In this document: positions 46,855 to 63,032 of the stretch, in pieces
Layout of the letters: each line of letters opens with the position of its first letter
How positions within the stretch are numbered: position 1 is the stretch's first letter
NCBI RefSeq assembly: GCF_018614975.1
Contig: NZ_JAGGNR010000005.1
Location: 124,001 to 188,000, forward strand
Source of the DNA: Paenibacillus polymyxa
GTDB lineage: Bacteria > Bacillota > Bacilli > Paenibacillales > Paenibacillaceae
DNA: 64,000 nt
Direction: 5' to 3'
Translations under genes and position numbers: made by a program
The notes under the pieces: generated by a model
Told to the model about the DNA's origin: nothing
Databases searched by the model: none
What the model saw: only the letters and a program-made list of their open reading frames with translations

Positions 46855-47037
46855 TCACCGTCCCTTGATTTAGTTTGTAATTACGTTGTGAAATTGTGAG
46901 TTGTATATTGAATGCTTGGAGTTGGCATCAGTAAGGGGTAAGGCATGCGAGAAATCCATTTACCTCCTTTTACAGTTTCATTCCAAATTGGGAGATTATA
47001 GAATGATAGTATCCAAGACGAAAGGAGGAATAAATCA

Positions 47038-47274
47038 ATGGTCATTAAAGCGACTCCCATTACATTGGAACAATTGAAGAACAAAGAGTTGGAAGCAGTA
47101 CAATCGGAAGTGAACGTGCTGGGCGAAACACGTGAAGTTAGTGCTCGTGCAGTATCGGCTCGCGCAGTATCGGCTCGCGCAGTATCGGCTCGCGCAGTAT
47201 CGGCTCGTGCGGTATCGGCTCGTGCAGTATCGGCTCGTGCAGTATCGGCTCGTGCAGTATCGGCTCGTGCATAA
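47038..47274 (+). CDS. Repetitive RiPP precursor: leader plus nine VSARA repeats
   Basis: A 78-residue peptide with a textbook AAAGGAGG site. Residues 1-33 form a charged leader (VIKATPITLEQLKNKELEAV, SEVNVLGETRE). Residues 34-78 are nine perfect copies of Val-Ser-Ala-Arg-Ala and nothing else. No signal peptide, Cys or aromatic residue is present in the repeats. It is the first gene of a large operon that includes an arginase-family enzyme, a leader-peptidase-like M16 pair and a MATE exporter. I infer a ribosomal peptide whose arginines are the modification sites. The minus strand over this region also lacks stops, but has no ribosome-binding site. Confidence 0.88.
   Translation: MVIKATPITLEQLKNKELEAVQSEVNVLGETREVSARAVSARAVSARAVSARAVSARAVSARAVSARAVSARAVSARA
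47137..47271 (+). repeat. Nine tandem 15-bp repeats encoding VSARA
   Basis: The unit GTATCGGCTCGYGCA repeats nine times; the first copy uses GTTAGTGCTCGTGCA. Differences are all synonymous (CGC or CGT for Arg, one GCG), so selection keeps the peptide while the DNA varies slightly. Such an array can change copy number by slippage. Confidence 0.95.
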
Positions 47275-47315
47275 TCCCTTGTATCTACTATGGCATTATG
47301 GTTAGTCCAATAGAT

Positions 47316-47337
47316 GAGAGCTTCGGATGAAGCTCTC
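47316..47337 (+). promoter_or_regulatory. Stem-loop between precursor and biosynthetic genes
   Basis: GAGAGCTTC and GAAGCTCTC form a perfect nine-base stem around GGAT, with no following U-tract. It lies after the precursor stop, where RiPP operons often carry a partial attenuator or mRNA-stabilising hairpin that gives more precursor than enzyme. Confidence 0.6.
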
Positions 47338-47390
47338 TCCCTATATTGAGAGTGCTCCGTATGATGGGTATAACGAGGTGTCCTGAACCG

Positions 47391-48398
47391 ATGCATATCA
47401 AGCAAATATGGTCATACATTCCCAAGTTCGTCGTTCCTGTCCGGGAGTTGAACGAACATCTGGGACTCAAACAAGCCCAGACCAAAGTGTTAGAGAAAAT
47501 TCACGGTCTGAAACAGGTTCCGCAAGACAAAGACGGTGATCTGACTAAGCTGTTAGGACGTGTGCTCGCCCAGGTGGTAAACAGTCCGACGGTTGTTCCA
47601 TCTTCCATCAAGTATATCATTTATTGCCACACAATTCAGGAAAATTTCCCCTTTCCAATGAAGGTATTGCAAGGTCTGAAGCAGGCTTACGATATGCATC
47701 ATGCCATAGCGTTTTCACTGACACAGCAGAACTGTGCCTCGGGTCTGATTGCGCTGGATGTTGCTGCAACATTGCTGCCCTCTTTGGAAGAGGATGATCA
47801 TATTTTAATCGTAACAGGCGAAAAAACATTCAGTCCCATTGTACAGCTCATCCCCAATACAACCGTTATGGGCGAAGCTGCGGCCGCCATACTGGTTGGT
47901 AAATCCGGGCCGGGAAGCAGGATGATGGGGCTTACGAACGTAACCCTTGGAAAATTCTGCAACGTGCTGACAGGTGATCCCGAGACGCTCAAGGAATTTC
48001 AGGAAATCTATACACCCCAGCTCTGTGATGTCATTCACGAGGCAATCGATGGGGCGGGCCTGACGTTGGAGGATATCCGTTATATTGTCCCGCACAATGT
48101 GAATCTGTCTTCCTGGAAAAAGGTTGCTGCACGATTGTCCTATCCATTGGACCGTGTGTACACATCCAATGTGGGAGAAATCGGGCACTGCTTCTGTTCC
48201 GATCCCTATATCAATCTGAAAGAGATTTCAGATCAGGGGCTTTTGCAGAAGGACGACTACTATTTGCTTGTCACGGTTGGGCTGGGAGCAACATTCAGCG
48301 TGGCGGTGATGCAGTTCGCAGAAGAACGAGGTGATGAGATTGACCGCACTGTTGACCGGATTTTCGAGAAAGCTGAAGCAGGCGCTTACAGGTCATGA
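47391..48398 (+). CDS. KAS III-family protein with Cys/His and His in place of Asn
   Basis: A 335-residue thiolase-fold protein. Active-site Cys115 is in TQQNCASGLI and His235 in VPHNVNLSSW. The third position, normally Asn in a GNTSAAS block, reads EIGHCFCSDPYINL (His266). The change suggests acyl transfer rather than decarboxylative condensation, as in CerJ-like KAS III relatives, which also depart from the usual triad. ATG at 47391 follows GAGGTG. It opens the biosynthetic part of the operon. Substrate probably an acyl-ACP made by the adjacent ATP-grasp/decarboxylase/ACP module (inference). Confidence 0.85.
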   Translation: MHIKQIWSYIPKFVVPVRELNEHLGLKQAQTKVLEKIHGLKQVPQDKDGDLTKLLGRVLAQVVNSPTVVPSSIKYIIYCHTIQENFPFPMKVLQGLKQAYDMHHAIAFSLTQQNCASGLIALDVAATLLPSLEEDDHILIVTGEKTFSPIVQLIPNTTVMGEAAAAILVGKSGPGSRMMGLTNVTLGKFCNVLTGDPETLKEFQEIYTPQLCDVIHEAIDGAGLTLEDIRYIVPHNVNLSSWKKVAARLSYPLDRVYTSNVGEIGHCFCSDPYINLKEISDQGLLQKDDYYLLVTVGLGATFSVAVMQFAEERGDEIDRTVDRIFEKAEAGAYRS

Positions 48399-49728
48399 TG
48401 AAGCTGTTTTTATTTATATAAACAATTTTGAAGTCGAAGAATACTGGAATGAGCAGGGGGTACTGAAGTTGCCTTCCCTGAGTGTTGGTTCGGGTGCTGA
48501 CGTTGTAAACCGGATGGAGGAGCTGGGGATTTTTCTGGCAGGTGAACAGGATGTCGTATTGCTCAAGGAGCTGCCGGATTCCGGGTTTATAGCAGATGCA
48601 CAGGCCATCGGTTTTGGTCAATCACGTTTAATTGCTACTGAATATAATGAACCGGGCTTGAACATTACAGCTAACATCCTGCATTGTCAGCGTACGCTGG
48701 ACAGGCTGCGTGAACTTGCAGACAGACAGGATATACAGGCTTATCTGGTTCCCTTCGGAGCCTCGGATCATGAAGAAGAACTAGCCCAACGCACGGGTAT
48801 TCCTCTTGCCGTACCTCCGGCTGACATTTTCCGCAAAGTCAATGATAAGGGCTATTCCCGAAGGCTTAATGCCGAACTGGGTATCCGTCAGATTCCTGGC
48901 TGTGAGTGTTACTCTCTGGAGGAACTTACGTCCGGATTTGAACGTATGAAATCCGTGCTGGAACAGGGCGGGCGTATTGTCATGAAGGATTCGATGGGCG
49001 TCTCGGGCAAGGGAATCACCGTTATTGCAGATGAAGCCCGTTTCCACAAATGCATGAAATTACTGGAGAAACAGGCAAGCAAGAATGGGACAAGAGTCGT
49101 TAATTATGTGCTGGAGCAGTGGATGAACAAGACATGTGATCTGAATTACCAGATTTTAGTTTATCGAAGTGGTGAGGTTGAATTTCTTGGTGTGAAGGAA
49201 TCCCTGGTCGAACAGGGTGTTCATCAGGGGCATCTCATGCCACCACATCTTGGTGATTCGCAGATCGCGGTAATCCGGGATGCTGCGTTGCAAATAGGTG
49301 CTGCGCTCCATCGGGACGGATACTACGGTGTAGCCGGTATCGATGCCATTCTGGATGAGGACGGAAGTGTGTGGCCTAATCTGGAGATCAATGCACGGTT
49401 TAACATGTCGACGTATCAGACTGAGATCCAGAACCAGTGGATTCCTGAGGGGATGTTAGCTTTGGCCAAAAAATATACACTTCGTTTGAATCACCGCCTG
49501 GATTATGGAAAGTTAAGGTCAACACTTGGTCCGCTGTTATTTGATCCACTGAAGGGCGAGGGGATACTTATCAACAATTTTGCAACGGTCAATGCGGCCT
49601 TCAAAGGTGAAGATCGTGTGTTCTCTGGTCGTCTCTATGGTGTCATTATTGCTCATTCGGCTGAGCAGCTACGGGCGACGGATGCTGCGGTTGAAGCCAA
49701 GCTATCATTCATAAACGAGGTGAAGTAG
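48334..49728 (+). CDS. ATP-grasp amino acid ligase (BtrJ-like)
   Basis: A 464-residue enzyme. The ATP-grasp core contains VNDKGYSRRLNAELGIRQIP, IVMKDSMGVSGKGITVIAD (ATP-binding lysine and glycine loop), YVLEQWMNKTCDLNYQI and the metal-binding LEINARFNMSTYQ. It has a pre-ATP-grasp N-terminal domain. In butirosin biosynthesis BtrJ uses ATP to load an amino acid onto the ACP BtrI. The next two genes here are a BtrK-like decarboxylase and an ACP, so the same reaction is likely. The start overlaps the KAS gene by 65 bases; GTG at 48331 is an alternative. Confidence 0.87.
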   Translation: MRLTALLTGFSRKLKQALTGHDEAVFIYINNFEVEEYWNEQGVLKLPSLSVGSGADVVNRMEELGIFLAGEQDVVLLKELPDSGFIADAQAIGFGQSRLIATEYNEPGLNITANILHCQRTLDRLRELADRQDIQAYLVPFGASDHEEELAQRTGIPLAVPPADIFRKVNDKGYSRRLNAELGIRQIPGCECYSLEELTSGFERMKSVLEQGGRIVMKDSMGVSGKGITVIADEARFHKCMKLLEKQASKNGTRVVNYVLEQWMNKTCDLNYQILVYRSGEVEFLGVKESLVEQGVHQGHLMPPHLGDSQIAVIRDAALQIGAALHRDGYYGVAGIDAILDEDGSVWPNLEINARFNMSTYQTEIQNQWIPEGMLALAKKYTLRLNHRLDYGKLRSTLGPLLFDPLKGEGILINNFATVNAAFKGEDRVFSGRLYGVIIAHSAEQLRATDAAVEAKLSFINEVK

Positions 49729-51018
49729 ATGTCTGGAGATTATCAGATTCAAGGGCTTGCGATTTCGGCCATCGCTGCACGATTCGGCACACCATTATAC
49801 GTCTATGACGCTGAGGTATTAGAGCGAGTATATGAAGAACTTCGCAGTCTGCTGACTCCAAAGGTGGAACTGTTCTACTCATTAAAGGCGAATCCCAATA
49901 TTTCAATTGTTCACCTGCTTCAGGGGCTTGGAGCTCAGGCAGAGGTCTGTTCCATGGCCGAATTACATACCGCACTACAGGCGGGTACGAAGCCGGATCG
50001 TATAATCTTCCTCGGACCAGGCAAGACCGACGCGGAGATAACCGCATGCATTCGTCATGGCATCTACGCAATCGTCTGTGAATCGTTTCAGGAGCTTAAC
50101 CGCATTGAAGCCATTGCAGCTGAAGAGGGACGGATTGTCCCCGTGGCACTGAGAATCAATCCTTCTTTTGCTGTGAAGGGATCACGGCTCACGATGGGTG
50201 GCAAACCACGCCAGTTTGGCATGGATGAGGATACTGTGATGCAGGGGCGACAGCAATTGGAACGATGCTCACATGTGGATATTATCGGTCTGCATGTATA
50301 CATGGGGACCCGTATGCTTGACGTGGAACCTATTGTGGAGAACACACGTCACATTCTGGAGCTTGCCGAACGGCTGGAGGAGCAACTGGGTATTCGGCTG
50401 CAGATGGTAGATGTGGGCGGTGGTCTCGGAGTTCCGTATTACGAGGGAGAACAGCCACTGTCTGTGAGCGTCCTGTCTGCACAATTGAACCCTTTGTTCG
50501 AACAATTCAAGGAAAAGCATCCTGACATCAGACTGTTCATGGAACTGGGAAGGTATCTGGTGGGAACCAGTGGGATGCTGGTTAGCCGAGCCTTATATGT
50601 CAAGGAGTCGTATGGAGAGACGTTTGTCGTGACTGATGGTGGTACCAATTGTCATATGGCTGCGGTCGGAATCGGCTCGTATGTAAAGCGTAATTTCCCG
50701 ATTGCATCTTTGTCACGTTACGGAGAATCCCCGGTTGCAGAGTTTAATATTACTGGCCCTTTGTGTACCCCGAATGATGTTATTGGCAAAAAAGTAAACC
50801 TGCCTCCCGTTGCACAAGGGGATTTAATTGGTGTATTTCATTCCGGTGCCTACGGCCCTACTGCTTCACCGACCCATTTTCTCAGTCATGGAAGTCCGGC
50901 TGAAGTGATGATTAGTGGTGGAGAAGCCCATCTGATTCGGGAAAGGGATACTCCCGAAGATCTACTGGGCAAACAGCGTTTGATCCCTGTTTCACATTCC
51001 GCAGTAACCAACAGATGA
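49729..51018 (+). CDS. PLP-dependent decarboxylase, BtrK-like (fold type III)
   Basis: A 429-residue alanine-racemase-fold decarboxylase. PLP lysine in FYSLKANPN (Lys53), GPGKTDAEI, HVYMGTR, DVGGGLGVPYY for phosphate binding, FMELGRYLVG and the catalytic Cys region GPLCTPNDVIG, followed by HSGAYG. GPGK, MGGKPRQFGMDE and GPLCTP are closer to BtrK of butirosin, which decarboxylates glutamyl-ACP to 4-aminobutyryl-ACP, than to LysA. Starts directly after the ATP-grasp stop and precedes the ACP by six bases. The amino acid actually used is not shown by sequence. Confidence 0.9.
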   Translation: MSGDYQIQGLAISAIAARFGTPLYVYDAEVLERVYEELRSLLTPKVELFYSLKANPNISIVHLLQGLGAQAEVCSMAELHTALQAGTKPDRIIFLGPGKTDAEITACIRHGIYAIVCESFQELNRIEAIAAEEGRIVPVALRINPSFAVKGSRLTMGGKPRQFGMDEDTVMQGRQQLERCSHVDIIGLHVYMGTRMLDVEPIVENTRHILELAERLEEQLGIRLQMVDVGGGLGVPYYEGEQPLSVSVLSAQLNPLFEQFKEKHPDIRLFMELGRYLVGTSGMLVSRALYVKESYGETFVVTDGGTNCHMAAVGIGSYVKRNFPIASLSRYGESPVAEFNITGPLCTPNDVIGKKVNLPPVAQGDLIGVFHSGAYGPTASPTHFLSHGSPAEVMISGGEAHLIRERDTPEDLLGKQRLIPVSHSAVTNR

Positions 51019-51024
51019 GGAGAG

Positions 51025-51294
51025 ATGATGATCATGACAACCGCAGTATTGCTTGAAGAAATCAAAGGTGCCCTTGCTGAAGTGTTGAATATGGAAGAGA
51101 ACCAGGCTGTTACATGGGACACATCCTTATTTGATGAGCTTCATCTGGATTCAACGTCTGTTCTGGAACTATTGATGACGTTGGAAGACCGTATTGACGG
51201 GCTGGAGATCGACCCGGATGAACTGGAGCCAGATGTATTTAACACAGTGGGTTCGCTAGCTGTATATATCGAAAAGCAACTCGTTGCTGCCTGA
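51025..51294 (+). CDS. Acyl carrier protein
   Basis: An 89-residue ACP with the phosphopantetheine Ser43 in ELHLDSTSVLELLMTLED and the usual acidic four-helix pattern. Three ATGs (51025, 51028, 51034) are possible starts. It is tightly packed between the decarboxylase and a degenerate thiolase-fold gene (one-base overlap). The Sfp-type PPTase at the operon end would activate it. It most likely carries the amino-acyl group produced by the two preceding enzymes. Confidence 0.92.
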   Translation: MMIMTTAVLLEEIKGALAEVLNMEENQAVTWDTSLFDELHLDSTSVLELLMTLEDRIDGLEIDPDELEPDVFNTVGSLAVYIEKQLVAA

Positions 51295-52166
51295 TGGCGG
51301 CGCCTGTTACCATCCGGGACATGAAGGTCAGGCTGTTTACGGACAAGCAGCCTCCGTTTGAACATCCGGAGTTGTTAAGATTTCACAGTGATTTGTTGGC
51401 GGGGTCCCCCGTGGTACCCCGGTTTCATCTGCTGGAGGGTCGTTATAACAATGCCTATCATGATATGAGTGTACTACTGCTCGAAGAGTCGGGGCTGGAT
51501 CAGATCATGGGAGACGTGGATGTTCTCCTGCTGGCCTACCATTTTCCCAATATTCGTCCAGATATCTCCATCGTCAACTATCTGATGGACCGTTATCAGG
51601 CACAGTTCCTGAGCTTTGCCGTGAACGATATGGGATTCGGGGCACCGTTCGCGGCACTCCATATGCTCCAGCATTATCTGAACAGTGGCAACTACGATCG
51701 GGGAATGCTGCTTGTGCTTGATCAGACGTCTCTTCCCTACGAGACGGAAGATGTGGGCGAGATTGTAGAACCTGACACGGGAGCTGTTCTGTTCCTGGAT
51801 CGGTTGGCAGAAGGCGGTTCATCCCTTGTCGGTGTGGAGATACAATATGCCGAGAGTTCGATAGCCGAGACAGCAGAACTGCTGCTGGACAGGCTTTGTG
51901 TTCAGGTGTCCGTCAATCTGGCTCAGATCAGGCTTCTTGTCCATCCGCTGTTGGAGCAGGAAGTGTCCGGTACTGAATGGTTTCATGCTACAGGCTGGCA
52001 AGGGAGTTACGATCCTGCCCACTGGAGCGCTGCACCATTCTTTGGTCTGAAGCAACTTCTTGAAGATCGGTGCACAGGTGAATACATATGTCTGATGCAC
52101 CTGGAGCCAGATGACAAGTTTATCTATGCACTTCTCATTCATACAGGCGGATACGAAGAGCTGTAA
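51294..52166 (+). CDS. Degenerate KAS III/thiolase-fold protein lacking the Cys
   Basis: A 290-residue protein that aligns by pattern with the neighbouring KAS III genes: VDVLLLAYHFPNIRPD corresponds to the first core strand, and FAVNDMGFGAPFAALHMLQ sits where the active-site Cys loop (MNCASS) should be. Cys and His of the triad are not found there. Comparable to chain-length-factor partners of ketosynthases, it could be a structural partner or substrate gate for the KAS at 47391 or 52186. Assignment rests on pattern and context. Confidence 0.65.
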   Translation: MAAPVTIRDMKVRLFTDKQPPFEHPELLRFHSDLLAGSPVVPRFHLLEGRYNNAYHDMSVLLLEESGLDQIMGDVDVLLLAYHFPNIRPDISIVNYLMDRYQAQFLSFAVNDMGFGAPFAALHMLQHYLNSGNYDRGMLLVLDQTSLPYETEDVGEIVEPDTGAVLFLDRLAEGGSSLVGVEIQYAESSIAETAELLLDRLCVQVSVNLAQIRLLVHPLLEQEVSGTEWFHATGWQGSYDPAHWSAAPFFGLKQLLEDRCTGEYICLMHLEPDDKFIYALLIHTGGYEEL

Positions 52167-52185
52167 TCAGGAGGAGGGAAACGTG

Positions 52186-53133
52186 ATGGGGCTGGGTATA
52201 GTGGATATCGGTGTATATTTGCCTGATCAGATCGAAGAGCCTGAGGTTATCCTCGAATCCTTGGGACTGGGTAAAGGTGAGCTTCAATTGCTGCGCAGAT
52301 ATCATCGTCTGAACGGTGTTCCCGTTACCCCTCCGGGTCAGCATCTGGATAATTCTATCGTTCGCGCGATCGGACAGCTTGTTGACAGACAACCCTTGCC
52401 TGCCATTGACCTTGTGCTCTATGCCCATTCTGCACATGTACAAGCACCAGGGGATTATAGGCCCTTGCAGCGGGCTCTGAGTGAATATGGGCTTGAGCAT
52501 ATCCCCTTCTATAGTATTTCACAGATGAACTGTGCGTCCTCGATAGCCGCTCTTCAATGGCTTGAACGAATCTCCCGTACACAGCCTGATATTCGTAATG
52601 TTTTATTGGTATGTGCCGATCAGTTTAATTTCATGCCACCCGACTGGAGATATATTCGAAAGTCTACGATTCTGGGTGACTCGGCTGTTGCCATGCTTCT
52701 ATCCAGAAACCATGGTCAGCACGTCTTACAGGCTGCTCATGTTCTTCGGGATACGAGGTTCCATACTGGATATTATGCGGAAGTGGAGGAGATGACGTCA
52801 TTTAACAAGCTGTATGTGGATCATATCATTCGAGGCATGGAAGAGCTGCTGTCAGCAGAGGGCCTGACACTTCATGATGTAGATCATATCTTTCCCCACA
52901 ACGTCAATTGGACTACATGGAAGGAGTTTTCAAAGCGTACAGGCGTGGATCAAAAACAAATTTACCTGGATAATATCCCGCGGATTGGACATACCTTCTC
53001 CACGGATGCGTTCATCAATCTAAGCTCCGGGCTAGAGAATGAATGGGTGCATAAGGGGGAGAGGTCCGTACTGGTCAGCATTGGGCTGGGCAGTTTTTTT
53101 GGTTTTGCGTTAATTGAGCATGGAGATTGTTGA
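52186..53133 (+). CDS. KAS III-family protein with Cys/His and His in place of Asn
   Basis: A 315-residue paralogue of the protein at 47391. Cys116 in SQMNCASSIAALQW, His238 in FPHNVNWTTW, and the third position again His269 in IGHTFSTDAFINL, followed by the shared Asp. Its start (VDIGVYLPDQIEEPEVIL) is the usual KAS III one. AGGAGGAGGG precedes ATG 52186. The two share the same non-standard triad, so they probably do related acyl transfers, possibly with one Cys-less partner each (51294 and 55043). Confidence 0.85.
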   Translation: MGLGIVDIGVYLPDQIEEPEVILESLGLGKGELQLLRRYHRLNGVPVTPPGQHLDNSIVRAIGQLVDRQPLPAIDLVLYAHSAHVQAPGDYRPLQRALSEYGLEHIPFYSISQMNCASSIAALQWLERISRTQPDIRNVLLVCADQFNFMPPDWRYIRKSTILGDSAVAMLLSRNHGQHVLQAAHVLRDTRFHTGYYAEVEEMTSFNKLYVDHIIRGMEELLSAEGLTLHDVDHIFPHNVNWTTWKEFSKRTGVDQKQIYLDNIPRIGHTFSTDAFINLSSGLENEWVHKGERSVLVSIGLGSFFGFALIEHGDC

Positions 53134-53158
53134 TCATGAGTCAAGAGGAGGAGTGCAT

Positions 53159-53893
53159 ATGTCAGTCTTGAATGCTGATGAGGTAGGCACTGTGCCGGTT
53201 GGTGCAGAGGCCGCAGGTCGTCCGGTACCAACTGTAACAGATCTGCTGGAAGCAGCAATGTTGCGTTTGGATACCCGTCCCGTGTTGCTATGCCAAGGGG
53301 GGATAATACTGGCGACACCTGAACTCGTGAAAAGTGGGCCATGGATATGTCATGCAGAGACAGGCCGTATCTACGAATGGAAACAGGTACGTGCGGATCG
53401 GGTGGAAGATCGGATGATGGAGCCTTCAGGTCTTTTACTCTACCGAATATCGGAACTTCGGAATGAAGATGTGGCATTTTTTGAAAGACAAGATGATGTA
53501 ACAGGTAATATAGCTGATCTCCGAAATCGGTTGCTTTATTTCCGTACTGAACTGTGTAGCGCAGGATTGGAGCAAGTGCGTAATCATCTATCCAGTCGCA
53601 ACTCAGGGGGGCAATCCACACTTCAGCATCAACTGGTCAAGGGCATGATTGCTGATATTTTGACTGTACTATATATGGCTGAAACTATTCAGTCGGATGA
53701 ATTCGTATTAGAGCAATCAGGCATTTCGGAGGCTCGTACAAGCACATGGGTTCATCAAGAACTGGATGAGGCCTTCCGTCAATTGCAGCGTCTTGGAGGA
53801 GGATTTGGCTATTTGCGACATGCGATCTCGGCTTACGTGTATGTAGGTCAAATGGTCAAAAATATGCTGCTCATTCCGAAGGAGGCCTTCTGA
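53159..53893 (+). CDS. Acyl-CoA dehydrogenase C-terminal-like partner protein
   Basis: A 244-residue protein. From about residue 130 it follows the four-helix C-terminal domain of acyl-CoA dehydrogenases: LQHQLVKGMIADILTVLYMA and LQRLGGGFGYLRH, like the DAMQxLGGYGY signature. The N-terminal FAD-binding parts are absent. AGGAGGAG precedes the ATG. It abuts a complete acyl-CoA dehydrogenase gene, so it may be a non-catalytic subunit of a heteromeric enzyme. Assignment is tentative. Confidence 0.6.
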   Translation: MSVLNADEVGTVPVGAEAAGRPVPTVTDLLEAAMLRLDTRPVLLCQGGIILATPELVKSGPWICHAETGRIYEWKQVRADRVEDRMMEPSGLLLYRISELRNEDVAFFERQDDVTGNIADLRNRLLYFRTELCSAGLEQVRNHLSSRNSGGQSTLQHQLVKGMIADILTVLYMAETIQSDEFVLEQSGISEARTSTWVHQELDEAFRQLQRLGGGFGYLRHAISAYVYVGQMVKNMLLIPKEAF

Positions 53894-55050
53894 TGATTAC
53901 ACGATCTACCATTGCTGTTTTTGAGCAGGAAATGAAACAATATGCCACGGATTTACGTGATATTGGCCTGGTTATTGACCGTGAACCTGAGCGTATAGCT
54001 GATTTTACACATCTGGCATCTATGCGAACCATCAATCGCATGATGATCCCGCCGGAATATGGCGGTGAACCGATCGTCACTGTAGGTCAGGAACGATATT
54101 ATGGTCTTTCCTGTCTGGAAAGAGTTATCGCGATTGAGGAGCTGTCAGCAGGAGATGCCGGTGTATTTCTCGGGAGCCCGGGTCCATCGATGTCCAGTGT
54201 AATCATATCAGCACTGGCTGACTCACAACAGAAGGAGCGGTACTATTCTCATTTTCTCAAGGGACCCGCGTGGTCATTCTTCGCTCTTACTGAACCGGAA
54301 AAAGGCTCGGATGCTACTGGTATTGGCACACGAATTTCGCGGAACAAGGAAGGTGAACTGAACCTTGACGGACAGAAGTTCTATATCGGTAATGGTAGTC
54401 GTGCCAGCATCGGACTGGTATTTGCCCAGACCAATCGTACGCCTCTCGGCATACAGATCGCGCTGGTAGACACGTCTGTGCAGGGATTTAGTGCCATACC
54501 TCTGGATACGATGGGGGTTAGAGGTGTGCAATTGAGTCATCTCACGTTGGATGGTTTTCCGCTGGCTGAGGAAGATATCATTGGGCGTCATCTCAGTCCA
54601 ACCAAGCGCGGATTATGGGGCGCGCTTCAGACCTTTCATCGTATGCGGCCTGGTGTCGCTGCACTTGCGCTTGGAGTCGCACGGGCAGCATATGATTATG
54701 TGAAGGAGCATAGGTCCGTTTTCTCGGAGAGGGAGAAGGTGGAGTTAGAGCGACTGGAGATGCGTCTGCATTCACTCCGTAGTATGATTCGCAGCGCAGC
54801 GGCGGAGATTGATGCGGATGTGCAAAAAGGGTATCTGGCTTCCCTGAGCAAAATTCGTGCTGGAGCACTGGCTGAGGAGGCCACGGAACTGGCGCTTGAC
54901 CTGATGGGACCTGGTTCCATGATTGACCATCCTTTATTGAATAAATGGTATCGGGATGCGCGTGCTTTCGAATTCATGGAAGGAACTACCTCCATTCAGA
55001 AGATCAACGTTTTCCAAGCCTATGCCAATGGAAAAATGAAGCATGCCTGA
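53893..55050 (+). CDS. Acyl-CoA/acyl-ACP dehydrogenase
   Basis: A 385-residue flavoprotein that oxidises an acyl thioester at alpha-beta. Visible motifs are FALTEPEKGSDATGIGT (FAD and substrate binding), DGQKFYIGNGSRA, the R-rich helix start GALQTFHRMRPGVAALALG, and FEFMEGTTSIQKINVFQ toward the C-terminus with the catalytic Glu. Its ATG overlaps the previous stop by one base. In a pathway with an ACP, the substrate is probably the ACP-bound amino-acyl or fatty acyl chain, giving an enoyl thioester; this is inference. Confidence 0.9.
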   Translation: MITRSTIAVFEQEMKQYATDLRDIGLVIDREPERIADFTHLASMRTINRMMIPPEYGGEPIVTVGQERYYGLSCLERVIAIEELSAGDAGVFLGSPGPSMSSVIISALADSQQKERYYSHFLKGPAWSFFALTEPEKGSDATGIGTRISRNKEGELNLDGQKFYIGNGSRASIGLVFAQTNRTPLGIQIALVDTSVQGFSAIPLDTMGVRGVQLSHLTLDGFPLAEEDIIGRHLSPTKRGLWGALQTFHRMRPGVAALALGVARAAYDYVKEHRSVFSEREKVELERLEMRLHSLRSMIRSAAAEIDADVQKGYLASLSKIRAGALAEEATELALDLMGPGSMIDHPLLNKWYRDARAFEFMEGTTSIQKINVFQAYANGKMKHA

Positions 55051-55996: not shown

Positions 55997-56015
55997 ATGG
56001 AGGAGGGGATTGAAT

Positions 56016-57395
56016 TTGAAAGGTCTGGATTACACTTCGGGATCGGTGAACCGGCTGTTAATCCGCACTGCAATACCGATGCTGCTTGCTTCTTTGGTTA
56101 ACGTAACAACGCAGCTGGTCAATGTTTTTTTTATGGGTCATACCAGTCAGACCGTGTTATATGTGCTATCACTGTATATTCCCATTTCCTTTATCATGAT
56201 TGCACTTGTGGAAGCCATGCAATTGTCGGTTCAGGTTGCTGTCTCACGGAGCAGAGCGGAGGGTTCGCGGGCTTTTACTTCGCTACTTGGGCATATGCTG
56301 GGCAGCGCAGCTATTTTTTCAATTGTTGCTGGCGGTGTGGTTATGCTGGTGTCGCCACTTCTCTCCTGGTTTTATGCCGTCCCTATGGATGTAAGGCCCT
56401 TGTTTACCGTTTATGTGGCGGGCATGATGGCAGCAGGTGTGCCCGCTGTGCTCGCAGCGGTGGGTGGTGCTGCACTACGTGGGTTGGGCCGGGCTCAAGC
56501 GGCAGCGTGGAATTCCGTAGGTACGGCATCGCTCAACATTATGCTGGTGTACTGGTTCGTTTCGGTGGCTGGAATGGAATTGAAGGGAATTGTATACGCC
56601 AATCTTATTTCTTCAACACTCTCTTTGCTCATAAGCCTCCTGATTCTGATATTGAGGAAGGAGTTCGTGTATGAACGGATAACATTTGTGTGGAAACATC
56701 TCATTGCACTTCAGCAGGTAGGTATTCCCGTATTTATTTCGTACTGTCTTATCTTTTTGAGTACTTTCTTTTTCAACAAAATCGTCAGTCGATTTGGGGA
56801 AGGGGTAGTTGCTGGATTCGGAGTTGGATACCGAATACAGACGATGGCTATACTGCCTGGAATCGTTATTGGATCGGCTATCGGGATCATGATTAATCAT
56901 AATCTCAAAGAGGCTCATCGACCGCGTGCATACGAGAGCTATCGCAGAGGCCTGGTACAGTCATTCATTCTTTATGCCGTAATTGCCGTATCCATCTGGG
57001 CATGGCGGGAACCGTTGACAGCTTTCCTGATTGCGGACCCCGTATCCCGTGCAGAAGCGGCCCGATATCTGGCAGTGGTTTCCCTTTCCTATCTGACCAT
57101 GGGTCCTATGATGACGACGCTGCTTACCATGGAACAGAGCGGACGCGGCTATCAGGCCCTGCTTATGAATGCTGCATATTTTCTGCTTATTATTGTTGCA
57201 GGGTGGGGGCTGACACGAATCTTTGATCATGTGGGATACTTCTATGGCGTCATTGCTTTTGTTAATGCAGCGAGTTTATTATGCATCTTACCCGTGATCA
57301 GGCTGTTCAAAAAGGACTATACAGATTCATCCGGGCATAAACCAACTGACGTGGATGAGCAGGAGGGTCTAGCTGCTCAGAGTTATTCGACATAG
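56016..57395 (+). CDS. MATE-family efflux transporter
   Basis: A 459-residue membrane protein with twelve helices. Family marks are LLASLVNVTTQLVNVFFMGH, the pseudo-duplicated half start YCLIFLSTFFFNKIVSRFGE, GFGVGYRIQTMAILPGIVI and LAVVSLSYLTMGPM. TTG at 56016 follows GGAGGAGGGG at seven bases; TTG at 56010 is too close. Position inside the operon makes it the probable exporter of the finished product, using Na+ or H+ exchange. Confidence 0.93.
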   Translation: MKGLDYTSGSVNRLLIRTAIPMLLASLVNVTTQLVNVFFMGHTSQTVLYVLSLYIPISFIMIALVEAMQLSVQVAVSRSRAEGSRAFTSLLGHMLGSAAIFSIVAGGVVMLVSPLLSWFYAVPMDVRPLFTVYVAGMMAAGVPAVLAAVGGAALRGLGRAQAAAWNSVGTASLNIMLVYWFVSVAGMELKGIVYANLISSTLSLLISLLILILRKEFVYERITFVWKHLIALQQVGIPVFISYCLIFLSTFFFNKIVSRFGEGVVAGFGVGYRIQTMAILPGIVIGSAIGIMINHNLKEAHRPRAYESYRRGLVQSFILYAVIAVSIWAWREPLTAFLIADPVSRAEAARYLAVVSLSYLTMGPMMTTLLTMEQSGRGYQALLMNAAYFLLIIVAGWGLTRIFDHVGYFYGVIAFVNAASLLCILPVIRLFKKDYTDSSGHKPTDVDEQEGLAAQSYST

Positions 57396-57428
57396 ATATA
57401 ACCAATATCAAATAGAGGAGGTCTCTTT

Positions 57429-58562
57429 ATGAAAGCTCCGGAACCTGCATACCTGGTACGCCGCATCGGTGATACGTTGATTGCAGCCGATGAGACGTTC
57501 AGCCAGTTCTATCAGATTGAACCCGCTGAAGAACTGGAGCCTCGTCCCATTCCACGGTTGGATGGCGTCGCTCCTCCAGTTGTCCCTTTTTTTTCACTGG
57601 AACCCCTGGTTAGTCACGATTCACCGCATCTCTATATGCTGGGTATTCCCTATTCGGGAGGTTCAGGTATGGAGGGATCAAATGTTGCCGGATTTGAGCA
57701 ATCTCTTCGGGCCGAATCATGGAAAAAGGTAATGTATCCAGCTCTGACGCAATCCCGCATATCAGGACTATATGACATTGGCAGTGGCCAGAGATTACTT
57801 GAATCAGTAATGATGCAGGATTTGGGTACTTGCCAAACAGATGAGTCGGATTTTTCCTACTCGAAGGGTCTTAACTCAGCTCTGGTACATACCGAAAGGG
57901 AAGAGGCACTACTGTGCTGCATTGGTGGAGATCATTCCATTACGTATTCCATCCTGAAATCCATATTGAGTCGAACAAGCGCAAGAATCATACTCGTCCA
58001 GTTTGATGCCCACCATGATTGCGGGGTGGATGCTATTCATCAGAATGAGATGCATCATGCCAATTTTGTGAGGCATCTACTGACGGAGGACGGTATCGCC
58101 GCAGTCGTGCAGATTGGTCTGCGCGGCCTTCGTTCTGTAGATCAGATGTACAAACATCCCAAATTGGTTCAGATTCCTGCAGAACAGATGACCCCGGAAC
58201 GAGTGCGGACAACCCTGCTTGATATACAGCACAAGTTTCAGGCGGAAGCGGCCTATTTATCGTTTGACTTAGATTGTCTTGATCCTGGGAGTTTTCCTTA
58301 TGTTGATTTTCCTATCAGTGGAGGCCCCTCATGGTTTAACACCCGAAACTGTGTGGTCGCAGCGCTGGAATCCTCCTTGTCCTACGTGGGCTTTGATATG
58401 GTGGAAGGGCAGGAAGCAGAATCGGATGAACGCATTCCGGGGCAATATGAGATGGCCCTCAGAATGCTTACGTATATGATGGATGGCATGCACCGAAATT
58501 ACCTTCGACACCGAAAAGGTGCTCTTAGAGTTTCTCAAGCCTTGGAGGGGACACATAGATGA
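57429..58562 (+). CDS. Arginase/agmatinase-family enzyme, candidate peptide arginase
   Basis: A 377-residue ureohydrolase. All manganese ligands are present: His in IGGDHSITY (about residue 169), FDAHHDCGVD, HHANFVRHL and SFDLDCLDPG. Free-arginine arginases are shorter (about 300); this one has an N-terminal extension (RRIGDTLIAADETFSQFYQI). In the landornamide pathway the related OspR hydrolyses Arg to ornithine within a precursor peptide. Here every repeat of the precursor contains one Arg, so the same role is likely. GGAGG precedes the ATG. Polyamine metabolism is the alternative. Confidence 0.88.
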   Translation: MKAPEPAYLVRRIGDTLIAADETFSQFYQIEPAEELEPRPIPRLDGVAPPVVPFFSLEPLVSHDSPHLYMLGIPYSGGSGMEGSNVAGFEQSLRAESWKKVMYPALTQSRISGLYDIGSGQRLLESVMMQDLGTCQTDESDFSYSKGLNSALVHTEREEALLCCIGGDHSITYSILKSILSRTSARIILVQFDAHHDCGVDAIHQNEMHHANFVRHLLTEDGIAAVVQIGLRGLRSVDQMYKHPKLVQIPAEQMTPERVRTTLLDIQHKFQAEAAYLSFDLDCLDPGSFPYVDFPISGGPSWFNTRNCVVAALESSLSYVGFDMVEGQEAESDERIPGQYEMALRMLTYMMDGMHRNYLRHRKGALRVSQALEGTHR

Positions 58563-59536
58563 TGAACTTTAGATCTTTGTATCATATGTACCGTGAACAG
58601 GTCAGAGATGAACTTCATAGGGAGCGGCAGGATGGCATTCATTTGGGGTCCTTTTATGCACTGATGAACATTATCAAGGAGATGGCTCCGCTTAAGCCGA
58701 AGCAGTCTCCCGAGTCTATCTGGATGGACTATCTCGCATTTCTTCGTACGATTAATGAGCACAAGAAAAGCCCCTACTCGTTTATGGAGTGGGATGAGGT
58801 AGAGGGGCGGGAACATCTGCAGGCAACGTTGCGTGAAGGTGGTGCATTATTAACCTGGCATTACGGGTTCGTGAGGCACAATATGATTACAATCGGTCAG
58901 GAAATACGTGCAGGCCACATGCCTGTCAAGCTCCCGTTTTATCTGATCGCCGAGCAGGAAACAGTCGAACAAGAGAAAAAGCTGTCCGGCTGGGAGGCCA
59001 TCCGCAAGTATGCAGGTGCGGAACTGCTCAATGCGGAGGATGAGATGATTGGCATCAGGCTGTATTCCCATTTGCGGAAAGGTGGATCATTCAGTCTTTT
59101 TGTAGATGGACAGACCGGATTCAATACGGATAACCATGCTGTTGAACTACCTTTTCTAAGTTCGAAAATTCGCACGCGAAGTGGTATTTTTCGTATTTTG
59201 GCCAAAACACAAAAGCCAGTATGTGTATACTTTATGACCCTTACAGAGGACTTTCGTTCCAAGATCGTTTTTCTGCCACCGGTTGTATTGGATCAGGATA
59301 TTCAGGATTCTGCTGATAGGATATACGAGCCATTTCGCGAGCAACTGTTAAGCCAGCCAGCATTGTGGCGTTTCTGGGACAGGCATCACCAGCAGGTCAT
59401 TCACTGGCAAGATGATGAAACGTCAATTACTGATGAAGCAGTCGGCCGTGTGGACTGGATTTCCAAGCCACTTGATGGTTTTGGACAGCTCGGTCTGAAC
59501 ACGGACAGTGGGGTAATCTATAATATCAGTTCGTAG
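58559..59536 (+). CDS. LpxL/HtrB-like lysophospholipid acyltransferase-family protein
   Basis: A 325-residue protein, start overlapping the arginase stop (ATGATG). The central segment EGGALLTWHYGFVRHNM contains the His-bearing motif of the LpxL/HtrB acyltransferase fold, followed by GIRLYSHLRKGGSFSLFVDG and KTQKPVCVYFMTLT. Family members move acyl groups from ACP or CoA to an acceptor. In this operon the acceptor could be the modified peptide, for example the ornithine amines. There is no N-terminal membrane helix. The HxxxxE spacing is not clearly conserved, so activity is uncertain. Confidence 0.75.
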   Translation: MMNFRSLYHMYREQVRDELHRERQDGIHLGSFYALMNIIKEMAPLKPKQSPESIWMDYLAFLRTINEHKKSPYSFMEWDEVEGREHLQATLREGGALLTWHYGFVRHNMITIGQEIRAGHMPVKLPFYLIAEQETVEQEKKLSGWEAIRKYAGAELLNAEDEMIGIRLYSHLRKGGSFSLFVDGQTGFNTDNHAVELPFLSSKIRTRSGIFRILAKTQKPVCVYFMTLTEDFRSKIVFLPPVVLDQDIQDSADRIYEPFREQLLSQPALWRFWDRHHQQVIHWQDDETSITDEAVGRVDWISKPLDGFGQLGLNTDSGVIYNISS

Positions 59537-59561
59537 ATGGAAATGAGAGGAGGGGCGTAAG

Positions 59562-60920
59562 ATGCAGTCTTTTATTACTGAGAGGCGTAACAATATGTCG
59601 GTGCATGTGCTGCCAACAAACCAATATGCCAATGATTACGTGCAGATTAATCTGATTAATGCACAGCAAAACATACCCTCAGCAATATTTATCATGATCG
59701 TCCGTTTGTTAATAAACAGTTGTCGTCGCTTTCCATCGAACAGGCTGCTCCAGCAACAGTTATGGTCCCTGTATGGTGCAGAACTGACCTGTCGTTTTGA
59801 TTACAAAGGCGATACTCAGATTGCCTCGATCACGATGCGCATACCTCGTATAACAGAAGATAAGTTAATAACTGGAACACAGATGGAAACCATACATAGC
59901 GCTTTGCAATTACTCGCAGGTTTGTTGTATGACCCAGCGGTTGATGATCATGGCATGTTCGAAGAGATGCAAGTAAAGGATGAAATGGCTTGGACTGAAC
60001 ATCATATCGCGCATGCGGGAACGGATTGGGACAAGGTGGTGCAGAGCCGTTGTCTGGAATGGATGGGATATGAAGGGCAGAACCGCCAATTGGCTCTGGA
60101 TGAACTACGGAATTGTGTCATGTCTCATGAGTTGTGTCGGCACTATCAGGCATTGATTCACATTCCGATCCATGTTCATGTTCTTGGCGATATTCATCCT
60201 GGACGAATTATGGATCTGATCTGGGAACAATTTGGATATGGGAACAGGGACGTGTTCAAACGCTGTTGTTCGGAGAGAGAATTAGAACTACACCCAATCA
60301 ACACACAATATCCAGGAGAGGAAGAAGTAGAGGGACGACAAGGTAATCCTGCCAAGCAGCGGGAGGCTGAAGCCATGATGATGGAACTGTTGGACATTCA
60401 CCAGTGCAAGATCAATGTTACTTATCGTACAGGTATTCGATATGGCTCTGCTTTATATCCGGCTTTGTTTGTATTCCATACCTTATTTGGAGCGACACCC
60501 GCATCCCGGTTGCAGGTTGAATTACGTGAACGATCCCAGTTGGTATATCAAGTTACCAGCACACTGGATGATTTTCGGGAAACGCTTCACATTACAACGG
60601 GCACCAGCAGTGCTAACGTGACGGATGTTCTCGAAGGAATCGATATGGAATGGAAAAGAATCTGTGACGGAGATGTATCCGAGAGGGAGTTATATACCGC
60701 TGTACAGAATGTGATGCATTATGTTCAGGTCGGATTCGATCTGCCACATCAGGTCATTACCAATCATATGGATCGGGTGTTGAGCGAAAGTCAGATGACG
60801 ACTGTACAATTCCTTAAAGAAATAGCAGAAGTAACTCCTGAAAGGGTGGCTTTCGTTGCTACCGAGTTGAGGAAAGAAGTCACATGGATTCTGTACCCTG
60901 AGAGTGAATATTCCGCATAG
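59562..60920 (+). CDS. M16-family peptidase, subunit lacking HXXEH
   Basis: A 452-residue M16B-fold protein. It shows the family frame (FIMIVRLLINSCRRFP, LLYDPAVDDHGMFEEMQV, FHTLFGATPASRLQVELRER, RSQLVYQVTSTLDDFRE) but no zinc motif HXXEH. The C-terminal R and Y residues of the substrate-binding half are retained. GAGAGGAGGGG precedes ATG 59562. Paired with the catalytic subunit next door, it should form a heterodimer as in mitochondrial and paenithopeptin-type (PttP1/PttP2) M16 enzymes, where one partner supplies the active site and the other the binding surface. Confidence 0.88.
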   Translation: MQSFITERRNNMSVHVLPTNQYANDYVQINLINAQQNIPSAIFIMIVRLLINSCRRFPSNRLLQQQLWSLYGAELTCRFDYKGDTQIASITMRIPRITEDKLITGTQMETIHSALQLLAGLLYDPAVDDHGMFEEMQVKDEMAWTEHHIAHAGTDWDKVVQSRCLEWMGYEGQNRQLALDELRNCVMSHELCRHYQALIHIPIHVHVLGDIHPGRIMDLIWEQFGYGNRDVFKRCCSERELELHPINTQYPGEEEVEGRQGNPAKQREAEAMMMELLDIHQCKINVTYRTGIRYGSALYPALFVFHTLFGATPASRLQVELRERSQLVYQVTSTLDDFRETLHITTGTSSANVTDVLEGIDMEWKRICDGDVSERELYTAVQNVMHYVQVGFDLPHQVITNHMDRVLSESQMTTVQFLKEIAEVTPERVAFVATELRKEVTWILYPESEYSA

Positions 60921-60935
60921 TACAGGAGGGGAATT

Positions 60936-62153
60936 ATGAATAGTACCACATTAAATTCATGTGTCTGCAAGCGTTTATCCAACGGCCTGAACGTGAGCAT
61001 ACTGCCACAACCCAAATATAGTCATGCATTTGTATCCTGTTCTGTACCCTATGGGTCCATTCACGATATTACGCTTGCGGGTACGGCACATTTTCTCGAA
61101 CACATGATGTTTTACAATCCCGATGGTCAGTCCGTCAAATCACTTCTTCATGCCGAAGGGGCCTCAACGTCGGCGCTGACGCGTTATGATGTAACGACGT
61201 ACCAACTTGCTTGTACAGGTAATCTAAGGAACAGCCTTCAACTTTTTATGAACATGATTGCAACCCCCTATTTCACGAAAAAAAACATTGAGCGTGAGCG
61301 GGCGGCGATTCATCAGGAACTGGAAATGTACAAGGATCAACCCTCCTGGCTGGCTCTTCAGCAATTGTTGCAAATGATGTATGGTAACGACCATCCAATC
61401 ACACTGGATGTTGCGGGCACACCGGAGAGTATAGCCGACATTACCGTAGAATGGCTAAGCAATGCCTATGCAAGTCATTATGCGGCTTCTCGATTGTCTG
61501 TGGCAGTAGTGGGTCCTGTTGAACCGACGGAGATATTCGAATGGTTAGAGAACTTTTCGATGGATCAACCCAAGATCATGTCCCATACTCCAATCATTCA
61601 GCCGTTGCAGGAGCAGGACGAGACTTATAAGGAAATGAATGGTGGATCTTCAATACCTCTTGTCCGGTTTGGCTTTCAGGAAGAGAGACCGATTACGCGA
61701 ATGGAGACTCAGGTTGCAACCATGATTGGTATCGAAGCCCTTCTGGGAGAGACTTCAACCTTCTTCACAGAGAGTGTGAAGTCAGGTTTGCTCGGGAAAG
61801 GGAGTCATTGGGATCACTATTACAGGCAGGAATTTGCTTTCTCCAATGTCTGTGGGTATTCCGTTAATCCCGTTGAATTACATCAACGAGTTAAGGAAGA
61901 ATGCAGTCGTATTCAGGACCGTATGCTCTCTTCCGAAGATATACATTATGCTCGGATGAAGTGGATCAGTAATCACTATGCAGATATGGATTCATTGAAA
62001 AAACGTTGCATGCACATCTCTGAATATGGCGTTATCGGGCTGGATTACATGCAAATGAGCGAATGTGCTATGAAACTGACGGAGGAAGAGATTGGACTTC
62101 ACCTAAAACGTATAGCGAAACCGGGTCATCTGAGGATGTCCGTTGTTCGTTGA
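60936..62153 (+). CDS. M16-family zinc peptidase, catalytic subunit
   Basis: A 405-residue peptidase with the inverse zinc motif His52-Phe-Leu-Glu55-His56 (GTAHFLEHMMF) and the distal Glu in AAIHQELEMYKDQPSW. GASTSALTRYDVTTYQLACT also fits the M16B core. AGGAGGGG precedes ATG 60936, 15 bases after the partner gene. Such heterodimers are known from unclustered proteases that mature class III lanthipeptides in Paenibacillus; here the pair is inside the cluster and would remove the leader and perhaps cut the VSARA array into units. The C-terminus is close to the next gene, with no overlap. Confidence 0.92.
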   Translation: MNSTTLNSCVCKRLSNGLNVSILPQPKYSHAFVSCSVPYGSIHDITLAGTAHFLEHMMFYNPDGQSVKSLLHAEGASTSALTRYDVTTYQLACTGNLRNSLQLFMNMIATPYFTKKNIERERAAIHQELEMYKDQPSWLALQQLLQMMYGNDHPITLDVAGTPESIADITVEWLSNAYASHYAASRLSVAVVGPVEPTEIFEWLENFSMDQPKIMSHTPIIQPLQEQDETYKEMNGGSSIPLVRFGFQEERPITRMETQVATMIGIEALLGETSTFFTESVKSGLLGKGSHWDHYYRQEFAFSNVCGYSVNPVELHQRVKEECSRIQDRMLSSEDIHYARMKWISNHYADMDSLKKRCMHISEYGVIGLDYMQMSECAMKLTEEEIGLHLKRIAKPGHLRMSVVR

Positions 62154-62182
62154 GCAAGAAGAGTAGGAAGAGGAGTGACCTT

Positions 62183-62980
62183 ATGAAACCTGCAGTTACA
62201 GGGTGGAAGGAATCTGCTGCGGTTCAGTTTGCGGCAAATGAAGTACATATCTGGATACAGCCTCTTCCGCACAAGGGAGAGGGCTTTTTGTCAAGGTTGG
62301 ATATAGACACCTGTGTACTGAGCCAGGATGAAATTAAACGTGTACAGAGAAAACAGAAACAATCCATGTATGATGCTCAGAAGCTGGTTATATCGCGTAC
62401 ATTTCTGAGAGAAGTACTAGCGATGTACACGGGTCAATCAGCGTCAGATATTCATATTGAATATGGGGATTCAGGCAAACCCTATGTTCAGAGCGGACCA
62501 CAGTTTAACCTTTCTCATACCGAAGGGTGTTGTGTACTGGCATTAGCGGCTCATACAGAGCTGGGAATTGATCTTGAGCATGTACGTCCGTTGCTGCGGA
62601 TGAGCGCGGTAATCAGGCGATTTTTGACGGAAGATGAGAAGTGTTATGTACTGGATCACAGGGAGGAGGAACAGGTAACGATCCAGCGTGTTTGGCAAGT
62701 TCTCACACAAAAAGAGGCTTGGATTAAGGCGTGTGGTCAATCTCTGTCCGGACAGTGGCGAAAACTGAATACGATGGGAGAAGGGTTAGATGGGCATCAC
62801 GTTGTGGAACGGGAAGGGCAACATTATAATTTGCAGTCTTTGAACGTAGGTCCGAATTATTCCGCCACCTTATGCACTACAGGGAAGACAAGACCACTTG
62901 TACGCTGGATGAATGTTGCTGATGATAAACAAAGCAAAGAGGAAATTAAAAAAAATATAACTCACATATCTATTGTCTAA
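62183..62980 (+). CDS. 4'-phosphopantetheinyl transferase, Sfp type
   Basis: A 265-residue enzyme that transfers phosphopantetheine from CoA to the Ser of carrier proteins. Magnesium and CoA motifs are present: LGIDLEHVRP and WQVLTQKEAWIKACG, with FNLSHTEGCCVLAL. AAGAGGAGTG precedes ATG 62183. As the last gene of the operon it most likely activates the ACP at 51025. Confidence 0.93.
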   Translation: MKPAVTGWKESAAVQFAANEVHIWIQPLPHKGEGFLSRLDIDTCVLSQDEIKRVQRKQKQSMYDAQKLVISRTFLREVLAMYTGQSASDIHIEYGDSGKPYVQSGPQFNLSHTEGCCVLALAAHTELGIDLEHVRPLLRMSAVIRRFLTEDEKCYVLDHREEEQVTIQRVWQVLTQKEAWIKACGQSLSGQWRKLNTMGEGLDGHHVVEREGQHYNLQSLNVGPNYSATLCTTGKTRPLVRWMNVADDKQSKEEIKKNITHISIV

Positions 62981-63032
62981 ACATTGGCATTACCTATAAT
63001 ATGGACAAATGGTACCTTAATTTACCAATGTT
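62973..63032 (+). promoter_or_regulatory. Promoter inside an inverted repeat before S9 peptidase gene
   Basis: TTGTCT (62973-62978) and TATAAT (62995-63000), spacer 16 bases. AACATTGG (62980-62987) and CCAATGTT (63025-63032) are perfect inverted repeats flanking the -10 box, an operator-like layout. It overlaps the PPTase stop. Confidence 0.4.

Follow-up and report, generated by a model that had tools for sequence, protein, structure and literature searches.

What product is made by a gene cluster in which a peptide of five-residue VSARA repeats is followed by an arginase-family enzyme, an LpxL-like protein and enzymes for building acyl groups on a carrier protein? The cluster lies in a 64,000-nt stretch of Paenibacillus polymyxa DNA (the window, whose positions are used as coordinates, with gene starts taken at the longest open reading frame starts). 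On balance, we favour a family of ribosomally synthesized and post-translationally modified peptides (RiPPs) in which the arginines of a multicore precursor would be converted to ornithine and then likely N-acylated by an LpxL-fold enzyme, with an acyl group built on the cluster's own acyl carrier protein (ACP); we infer this chemistry from sequence. The initial annotation had proposed the same course, with the precursor as substrate and with proteolysis and export to follow, and comparison lends it backing: precursor, arginase and LpxL-like genes occur together in the window and in 26 other loci, Arg-Ala recurs throughout the core, and the acyl-building modules are exchangeable.

The precursor frame (47038-47274, + strand) heads the operon just downstream of AAAGGAGG, which resembles a ribosome site, and encodes 78 residues, a leader of 33 followed by nine VSARA units. 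The repeat array (47143-47271; by Tandem Repeats Finder, a score of 230 with 96% matches at a period of 15) bears out the repeats of the initial annotation, although its description of the peptide as pure VSARA passed over the leader. Two arrays in the 64 kb scored at least 50, that of the precursor included; the other, at 8737-8784, comprises 2.5 copies of a 19-base unit.

A scan of genome contigs with the single arginase sequence returned nothing; an alignment-based scan gave matches. Of 75 genus genomes, 21 had an arginase match at E <= 1e-20, the window's own included; with the threshold at 1e-30, so did 22 of the 394 genomes of the family. Genomes L043-L048 duplicate L031, L032, L038, L040, L041 and L042 and were counted once. 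The regulator, KAS1, ATP-grasp, decarboxylase, ACP, KSL2, KAS3 and small partner genes (Table 1) stand in window order in all 20 genus relatives, and the order continues through the dehydrogenase, KSL4, the MATE exporter, the arginase, the LpxL-like protein, both M16 peptidases and the phosphopantetheinyl transferase (PPTase). The matches listed name P. xylanexedens and Paenibacillus sp. OK003, 453mf, TCA20 and An7 as carriers. Mechercharimyces (G771), of another family, has this long cluster too, at 22-65% identity and with no PPTase match. The repeat precursor is present in 20/20 relatives, where the copies of L040 and L041 were missed by BLAST and are visible as reading frames, and in all 22 long-type loci (window, genus relatives and Mechercharimyces).

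Across the 14 codons of the leader motif KATPITLEQLKxKE, 3-7 synonymous changes were counted in L024-L042 against 0-1 amino-acid changes; the close relative L023 showed neither kind, and Mechercharimyces (L168), with a KATPISAEEL leader and IDLRA repeats, showed 5 synonymous against 7 amino-acid changes. The 22 long-type precursors contain 222 arginines spaced 5 or 6 residues from another arginine, and the residue that follows is Ala in 201, Glu in 20 and His in 1; the 21 non-Ala cases are each the first of their own series, where leader meets core (no such case occurs in L040). Each peptide bears 5 to 20 Arg-Ala units. The cores are composed of Ala, Arg, Val, Glu, Ser, Asp, Leu, Ile, Thr and one Phe, without Lys, Cys, His, Tyr, Trp, Asn or Gln. 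When L042, with its six-residue units, was set aside, the other 21 precursors yielded 191 five-residue units ending in Arg-Ala: VEARA (56), VSARA (41), AAARA (38), VAARA (30), AEARA (10), IDLRA (9), ASARA (4) and one each of AIARA, AEERA and IDIRA. Arg is the sole reactive side chain in 69 of these (AAARA, VAARA and AIARA) and is therefore the expected site of side-chain change. An encoded leader-core precursor is kept beside putative maturases in 22/22 long loci and in 5/5 of the short loci described below, and the precursor is highly likely to serve as the substrate of the cluster enzymes.

The arginase carries all six ligands expected of a PF00491 ureohydrolase (H169, D193, H195, D197, D280 and D282), at positions that we take from the family to be those of the binuclear Mn site, unchanged in 13/13 and 8/8 aligned rows. 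Its closest solved relatives are guanidinobutyrase, agmatinase and proclavaminate amidinohydrolase. PF00491 was its sole match, with none to PF12640, the family of OspR-type peptide arginases, and its final metal motif reads YLSFDLDCLDPG; the available part of one report gives EEH(N/H)EAF and LDIDLDYFSC as the pfam12640 motifs (PMC12703449). Neither the LpxL-like protein nor KSL2 had a real match among solved sequences, and structures were therefore predicted for both. The model of the LpxL-like protein adopts the fold of LpxM and PatA, which would place it within the LpxL/LpxM fold; database entries for this protein and the precursor, where they carry a name, are called 'LpxL/LpxP family acyltransferase', 'lauroyl/myristoyl acyltransferase' or 'hypothetical protein'.

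A profile of the LpxL-like protein matched in all 26 loci that had been selected for their arginase, against 0/74 control arginase loci (the 72 next-ranked arginase-superfamily loci among the matches listed plus the genome's two paralogues; five were shorter than 8 kb); the profile itself was built with seven of the 26 as rows, but all were first recognized by BLAST next to the arginase, and BLAST with the window's LpxL-like protein also finds these seven. L050 and L164 are close kin (95-97% identity), so that the 26 represent fewer independent lineages. The arginase and LpxL-like genes overlap or lie no more than 25 nt apart in 19 of the 20 relatives, the exception being L039, where frames are shortened. 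Shortened frames affect several cluster genes in L033, L039 and L041, were used unaltered, and may reflect assembly errors or decay.

Five short-type loci were also found: those of Alkalihalobacillus pseudalcaliphilus (L049) and Lysinibacillus mangiferihumi (L050), from the arginase matches listed, and L145 (G381), L164 (G876) and L166 (G520). Compared with 18 window proteins, they matched the arginase and the LpxL-like protein only, save that L145 matched the regulator too; the ATP-grasp, BtrK-like and ACP genes, which adjoin in 20/20 genus relatives, had no match in any of the five, and the LpxL-like gene travels with the arginase and not with the ACP module. To the pair, the short loci add a tiny Arg-bearing precursor, an M50-like membrane peptidase (with HExxH in the 4 loci examined) and an MFS exporter. 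Their cores comprise a single VIRC end in L050 and L164, ASGRC units in L145 and GDVVRC units in L166; L049 has three near-identical tandem precursor genes (8856-9223), the two readable copies ending in IIRCAR and the first being partly masked. Such tandem genes are an alternative to repeats within a gene, and the Cys of the short cores may be an acyl acceptor or have a ring or metal role.

L049 further encodes AcpS, an ACP, a FabA-like dehydratase, a ketosynthase (KS), a chain length factor (CLF) and a ketoreductase, which stand in place of the ATP-grasp, BtrK-like, ACP, KAS III and dehydrogenase genes; the acyl supply therefore looks swappable. Because minimal loci without the KAS module keep the arginase and LpxL-like genes, the pair needs no such module. 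This is our strongest argument: short loci retain the pair and lack or exchange the module, so the module would be the acyl supply and the pair would effect attachment to the peptide. The short loci also bear regulators with peptide-pheromone receptor domains, RNPP_C in L049 (7478-8464, E 1.1e-27) and L145 (755-1633, E 1.7e-17) and Rgg_C in L050 (13664-14530, E 3.3e-34), for which an acylated peptide signal would fit.

The aminoacyl-ACP module of the initial annotation was recovered in the window, where the ATP-grasp ligase, the BtrK-like decarboxylase and the free ACP stand side by side, as in a BtrI/BtrK module. A search with the ligase reached a broad family, with 249 proteins at E 1e-20, some of them from actinomycetes; none of the best 120 of the 249 matches bore a name that would decide the enzyme's function. 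The KAS III-like proteins that had been predicted number four, but only two have Cys-His-His; the triad is unchanged in 6/6 aligned KAS1 and 7/7 KAS3 sequences, His281 of KAS1 aligning with an Asn of FabH. The other two have lost the Cys. KSL2 has Phe (Met in L165) at the residue aligned with the KAS3 Cys, and its predicted fold matches KAS III, PqsBC and ChlB3 (E ~1e-10 to 1e-11) with middling TM-scores of 0.55-0.66; KSL4 has Pro at this position and gave an ACP_syn_III_C match in 2/7 members, the window copy not among them. Comparison of KSL2 with KSL4 gave no real match. The proposed acyl-CoA dehydrogenase pair held for one member: the flavoenzyme is a clear dehydrogenase, whose Glu363-Gly-Thr is unchanged in 6/6 (Glu363 is presumably the catalytic Glu position), whereas the smaller partner gave a weak dehydrogenase C-terminal domain match in 6/7 members (best E 0.019, at a lax threshold), with 14.7 bits for the window copy against 22.4 required, and did not match the large subunit in a profile comparison.

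Together these data suggest the following course. The leader motif KATPITLEQLKxKE would recruit the enzymes, and the arginase-family enzyme would hydrolyse Arg to ornithine in every repeat, a conversion that we consider likely. The ATP-grasp ligase would put an amino acid onto the ACP, charging it with Asp or Glu, or possibly another; decarboxylation by the BtrK-like enzyme would give a beta- or gamma-aminoacyl-ACP, which one KAS III/KAS III-like pair would N-acylate (or extend) and the flavoenzyme would desaturate, as proposed for bolagladin. The chances that the acyl group is of aminoacyl type seem to us about even. The LpxL-fold enzyme would then transfer the ACP-borne group to the delta-nitrogen of ornithine, which seems fairly probable to us. 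The M16 pair would cut off the leader and may cleave between repeats, the latter being a matter on which we lean neither way. Cleavage at every repeat would leave no VSA(Orn)A multimer, the form of product suggested by the initial annotation, which accordingly stands as a conjecture. The MATE protein would export the product, and the neighbouring HTH-TPR protein may sense it.

Could the substrate of the arginase instead be a small acyl product bearing a guanidino group, the repeat peptide being a separate matter? All three of its closest solved relatives take small substrates, and late amidinohydrolases act in this way on guanidino polyketides; however, four short loci hold the arginase, the LpxL-like gene and an Arg-bearing precursor with no match to the acyl-building genes of the window, and with a precursor in every long and short locus and Arg-Ala as a constant core feature this reading is quite unlikely. 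A very remote possibility is that the peptide stays unmodified, as a cationic helix or a signal, and that the operon product is unrelated: a composition of Ala, Arg, Val and Glu would suit a helix, and regulators of peptide-sensor type are adjacent, but the precursor co-occurs with the arginase and the LpxL-like gene even across very different cores. A further possibility retains the RiPP and the conversion of Arg to ornithine, and places the acyl or aminoacyl group on the N terminus or on the Cys of short-type cores, or has the ATP-grasp enzyme ligate an amino acid to the peptide. Its PreAtp-grasp domain and the Arg-Cys of each short core speak for this, as do lipidated class III lanthipeptides, which the accessible text describes as acylated at the N terminus (PMC13060382). 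Long-type cores have neither Cys nor Lys, however, the genes of the ATP-grasp, BtrK-like and ACP trio stay together in all genus relatives and go unmatched in short loci, and the LpxL-like gene follows the arginase; we regard this possibility as improbable.

Acylation of ornithine, the reading we prefer, has several observations weighing against it. The catalytic dyad motif of LpxL and LpxM is HX4(D/E), which in the LpxL-like protein is HX4R in 8/8 aligned rows and 20/20 genus loci; the catalytic residue named in the LpxM structural match is E127, and the catalytic machinery would thus be unlike that of LpxM. The ATP-grasp ligase is a merely putative counterpart of BtrJ; since the PreAtp-grasp family PF18604 also includes peptide ligases, such as pheganomycin PGM1, the enzyme might act on the peptide. 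Arg-Cys occurs in every short core (L049, L050, L145 and L166), and in these cores the acyl group could be accepted by Cys. The likeness between short and long leaders is modest, its score being reached by 38 (L049), 29 (L050), 156 (L166) and 572 (L145) of 5000 shuffles, and M50 matches fell below the Pfam cut-off in both short-locus peptidases scanned. Finally, homologous loci lacking any repetitive precursor had been named beforehand as evidence that would tell against the proposal; a precursor was found everywhere, but those of Alkalihalobacillus and Lysinibacillus are single-core, which is a weak instance of this.

How does the cluster compare with known systems? BtrJ is the ATP-grasp ligase of the butirosin pathway, which with the ACP BtrI and the PLP decarboxylase BtrK resembles the present trio (BtrK match E 1e-91); there the product is an aminoglycoside, whereas here KAS III pairs and a dehydrogenase follow, in a peptide cluster. 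The thiomorpholine of enteropeptin is made by a radical SAM enzyme, and no radical SAM domain was found among the window cluster proteins. According to the accessible portions of two reports, the enteropeptin enzyme KgrD is likewise a PF00491 arginase acting on a ribosomal peptide, but it requires thiomorpholine in its substrate and belongs to a pathway of N-methylation rather than acylation (PMC12703449, PMC10028609). Selidamides are RiPPs with fatty-acylated ornithine or lysine; phaeornamide and kamptornamide, in the sections available, undergo what is predicted here, Arg being converted to ornithine, whose side chain is then acylated (PMC9505594, PMC13060382), and for phaeornamide this order is a suggested one (PMC9505594). 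The same sections describe a GNAT acyltransferase, a pfam12640 arginase and NHLP or Nif11 leaders, in contrast to the predicted LpxM/PatA fold, the PF00491 arginase and the short-leader multicore precursor found here. Also unlike selidamides, the present cluster has no lanthionine synthetase, and it has its own ACP module, an M16 or M50-like peptidase and a MATE or MFS exporter. At E 0.01, none of the scanned cluster proteins matched GNAT; as GNAT defines the selidamides, the cluster is not one of them, though the predicted logic is alike.

The bolagladin cluster shares a BtrK-like decarboxylase, a free ACP, KAS III homologues and an acyl-CoA dehydrogenase with the window; as far as the available text goes, BolN (BtrK-like), the ACP BolC, two KAS III homologues and BolQ are proposed to give an N-acyl-dehydro-beta-alanyl thioester, bolN deletion abolished the product, and bolQ deletion gave a saturated residue, the authors leaving the timing open (PMC7756342). 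By the same text, the proposed loader of Asp is an AMP ligase, both KAS III proteins lack the Cys and a nonribosomal peptide synthetase takes the product, whereas here there is an ATP-grasp ligase, two KAS III proteins retain the Cys and the recipient would be a ribosomal peptide (PMC7756342). Goadvionins and lipolanthines similarly join polyketide or fatty acyl chemistry to a ribosomal peptide; they differ, in the excerpts available, in N-terminal GNAT acylation of class III lanthipeptides (PMC9505594, PMC13060382). Among the matches listed in the literature searched, which covered few subscription journals, no title or abstract shown describes the present gene set; this is not proof of absence.

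Table 1. Features of the cluster, in window coordinates
Feature	Position	Strand	Basis or remark
HTH + TPR regulator, divergent from operon	45598..46854	-	Pfam HTH_3 E 3.8e-14, TPR_12 E 4.6e-14
Precursor leader	47038..47136	+	MVIKATPITLEQLKNKELEAVQSEVNVLGETRE; sequence; KATPITLEQLKxKE kept, codon changes mostly synonymous
Precursor core, nine VSARA repeats	47137..47271	+	Sequence, repeat array, comparison; stop at 47272-47274
9-bp stem-loop between precursor gene and rest of operon	47316..47337	+	Best hairpin -16.5 kcal/mol
KAS III-like synthase KAS1	47346..48398	+	PF08541 E 3.3e-15; Cys130-His250-His281; true start possibly further in
ATP-grasp ligase with PreAtp-grasp domain	48331..49728	+	PF18604 E 1.8e-10, PF02222 E 1.6e-7
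BtrK-like pyridoxal phosphate (PLP) decarboxylase	49729..51018	+	Best solved relatives BtrK, E 9e-92 and 1e-91, residues 10-416
Free-standing ACP	51025..51294	+	PF00550 E 1.1e-9; LDSTS at expected attachment site
KSL2, KAS III-fold protein without active-site Cys	51294..52166	+	No Pfam hit; predicted fold
KAS III-like synthase KAS3	52111..53133	+	PF08541 E 9.1e-14; Cys141-His263-His294
Small dehydrogenase partner, 259 aa, candidate only	53114..53893	+	Weak Acyl-CoA_dh_1 match
Acyl-CoA dehydrogenase-type flavoenzyme	53893..55050	+	PF00441 E 2.8e-20
KSL4, KAS III-like protein without active-site Cys	55043..55996	+	Profile match to KAS3 E 1.3e-6, 90%
MATE exporter	56010..57395	+	PF01554 E 9.1e-22
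Arginase-superfamily enzyme, predicted peptide arginase	57429..58562	+	PF00491 E 3.4e-32
LpxL/LpxM-fold acyltransferase, predicted ornithine acylation	58559..59536	+	Predicted fold LpxM/PatA
M16 peptidase, inactive-type subunit	59562..60920	+	PF05193, YfmF-like; HxxEH absent
M16 peptidase, active-type subunit	60936..62153	+	PF00675 E 3.9e-18; HFLEH
Sfp/HetI-type PPTase	62063..62980	+	PF01648 E 1.8e-9; HetI model under cut-off

The single-strand layout with overlaps or very short gaps holds from KAS1 to the PPTase gene, where the operon ends at 62980 (gaps of -91 to +33 nt), but not for the precursor gene, which is followed by 71 nt containing a stem-loop (Table 1). In all 21 genus loci, the window included, this gap holds a hairpin at least as stable as -13.6 kcal/mol, each more stable than the best of its own 20 shuffles, a control laxer than the real scan; single bases were shuffled and 28-base windows taken at every third base only, which biases the test in favour of the real sequence. 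An arrangement of this kind could yield surplus precursor. No Rfam family was found in 44000-64000, and a scan of 46700-47400 revealed neither a sigma-70 nor a terminator consensus. The regulator, matched upstream of the precursor in 20/20 genus loci (partially in L033 and L039), is by this position judged to belong with the cluster; it has HTH and TPR domains and, at E 0.01, neither RNPP_C nor Rgg_C. The Mechercharimyces locus encodes a TPR protein, which gave no match to HTH.

The arginase, M16 pair, MATE exporter and PPTase named in the initial annotation all have Pfam matches, and the LpxL-like protein was recognized by its predicted fold. In the window and all 20 relatives, the active-type M16 subunit has its motif (HFLEH) and the inactive-type subunit lacks HxxEH. 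An assignment of these genes as housekeeping YfmF/YfmH was dropped, because the genome has its own YfmH apart from the cluster pair (C67:617692-618951, 650 bits, over the curated cut-off) and the cluster copy scored 229.7 bits against a cut-off of 250. The S9-type gene at 63066-63998 was likewise dropped as a cluster member, being present in 13/13 tested genus genomes without the arginase and absent from 2/3 cluster-bearing ones; adjoining the cluster, it could mark an insertion site.

More tentatively, and with considerable doubt, one may picture an undescribed class of Bacilli RiPPs that arrived independently at side-chain-acylated ornithine: an LpxM-fold enzyme with a changed active site would add an ACP-built N-acyl (dehydro)aminoacyl group to every ornithine, and the M16 pair would dice the chain into lipo-amino-acid pheromones read by a regulator of TPR, RNPP or Rgg type, the acyl module being swapped (none, KS/CLF or aminoacyl/KAS III) while the arginase-acyltransferase heart is kept. 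The RNPP/Rgg-type regulators beside three minimal loci suggest an acylated pheromone.

If the proposed chemistry is true, bacteria would have arrived a second time, by convergence, at enzymes that make ribosomal peptides with acylated ornithine; in this second route the acyltransferase superfamily of lipid A and phosphatidylinositol mannoside chemistry has been turned on peptides and the acyl-building module is exchangeable. The precursor would offer a ready-made template on which a single chain carries many acyl-ornithine units, and the minimal form is small enough for reconstruction in E. coli, so that the arginase-acyltransferase step would be directly testable.

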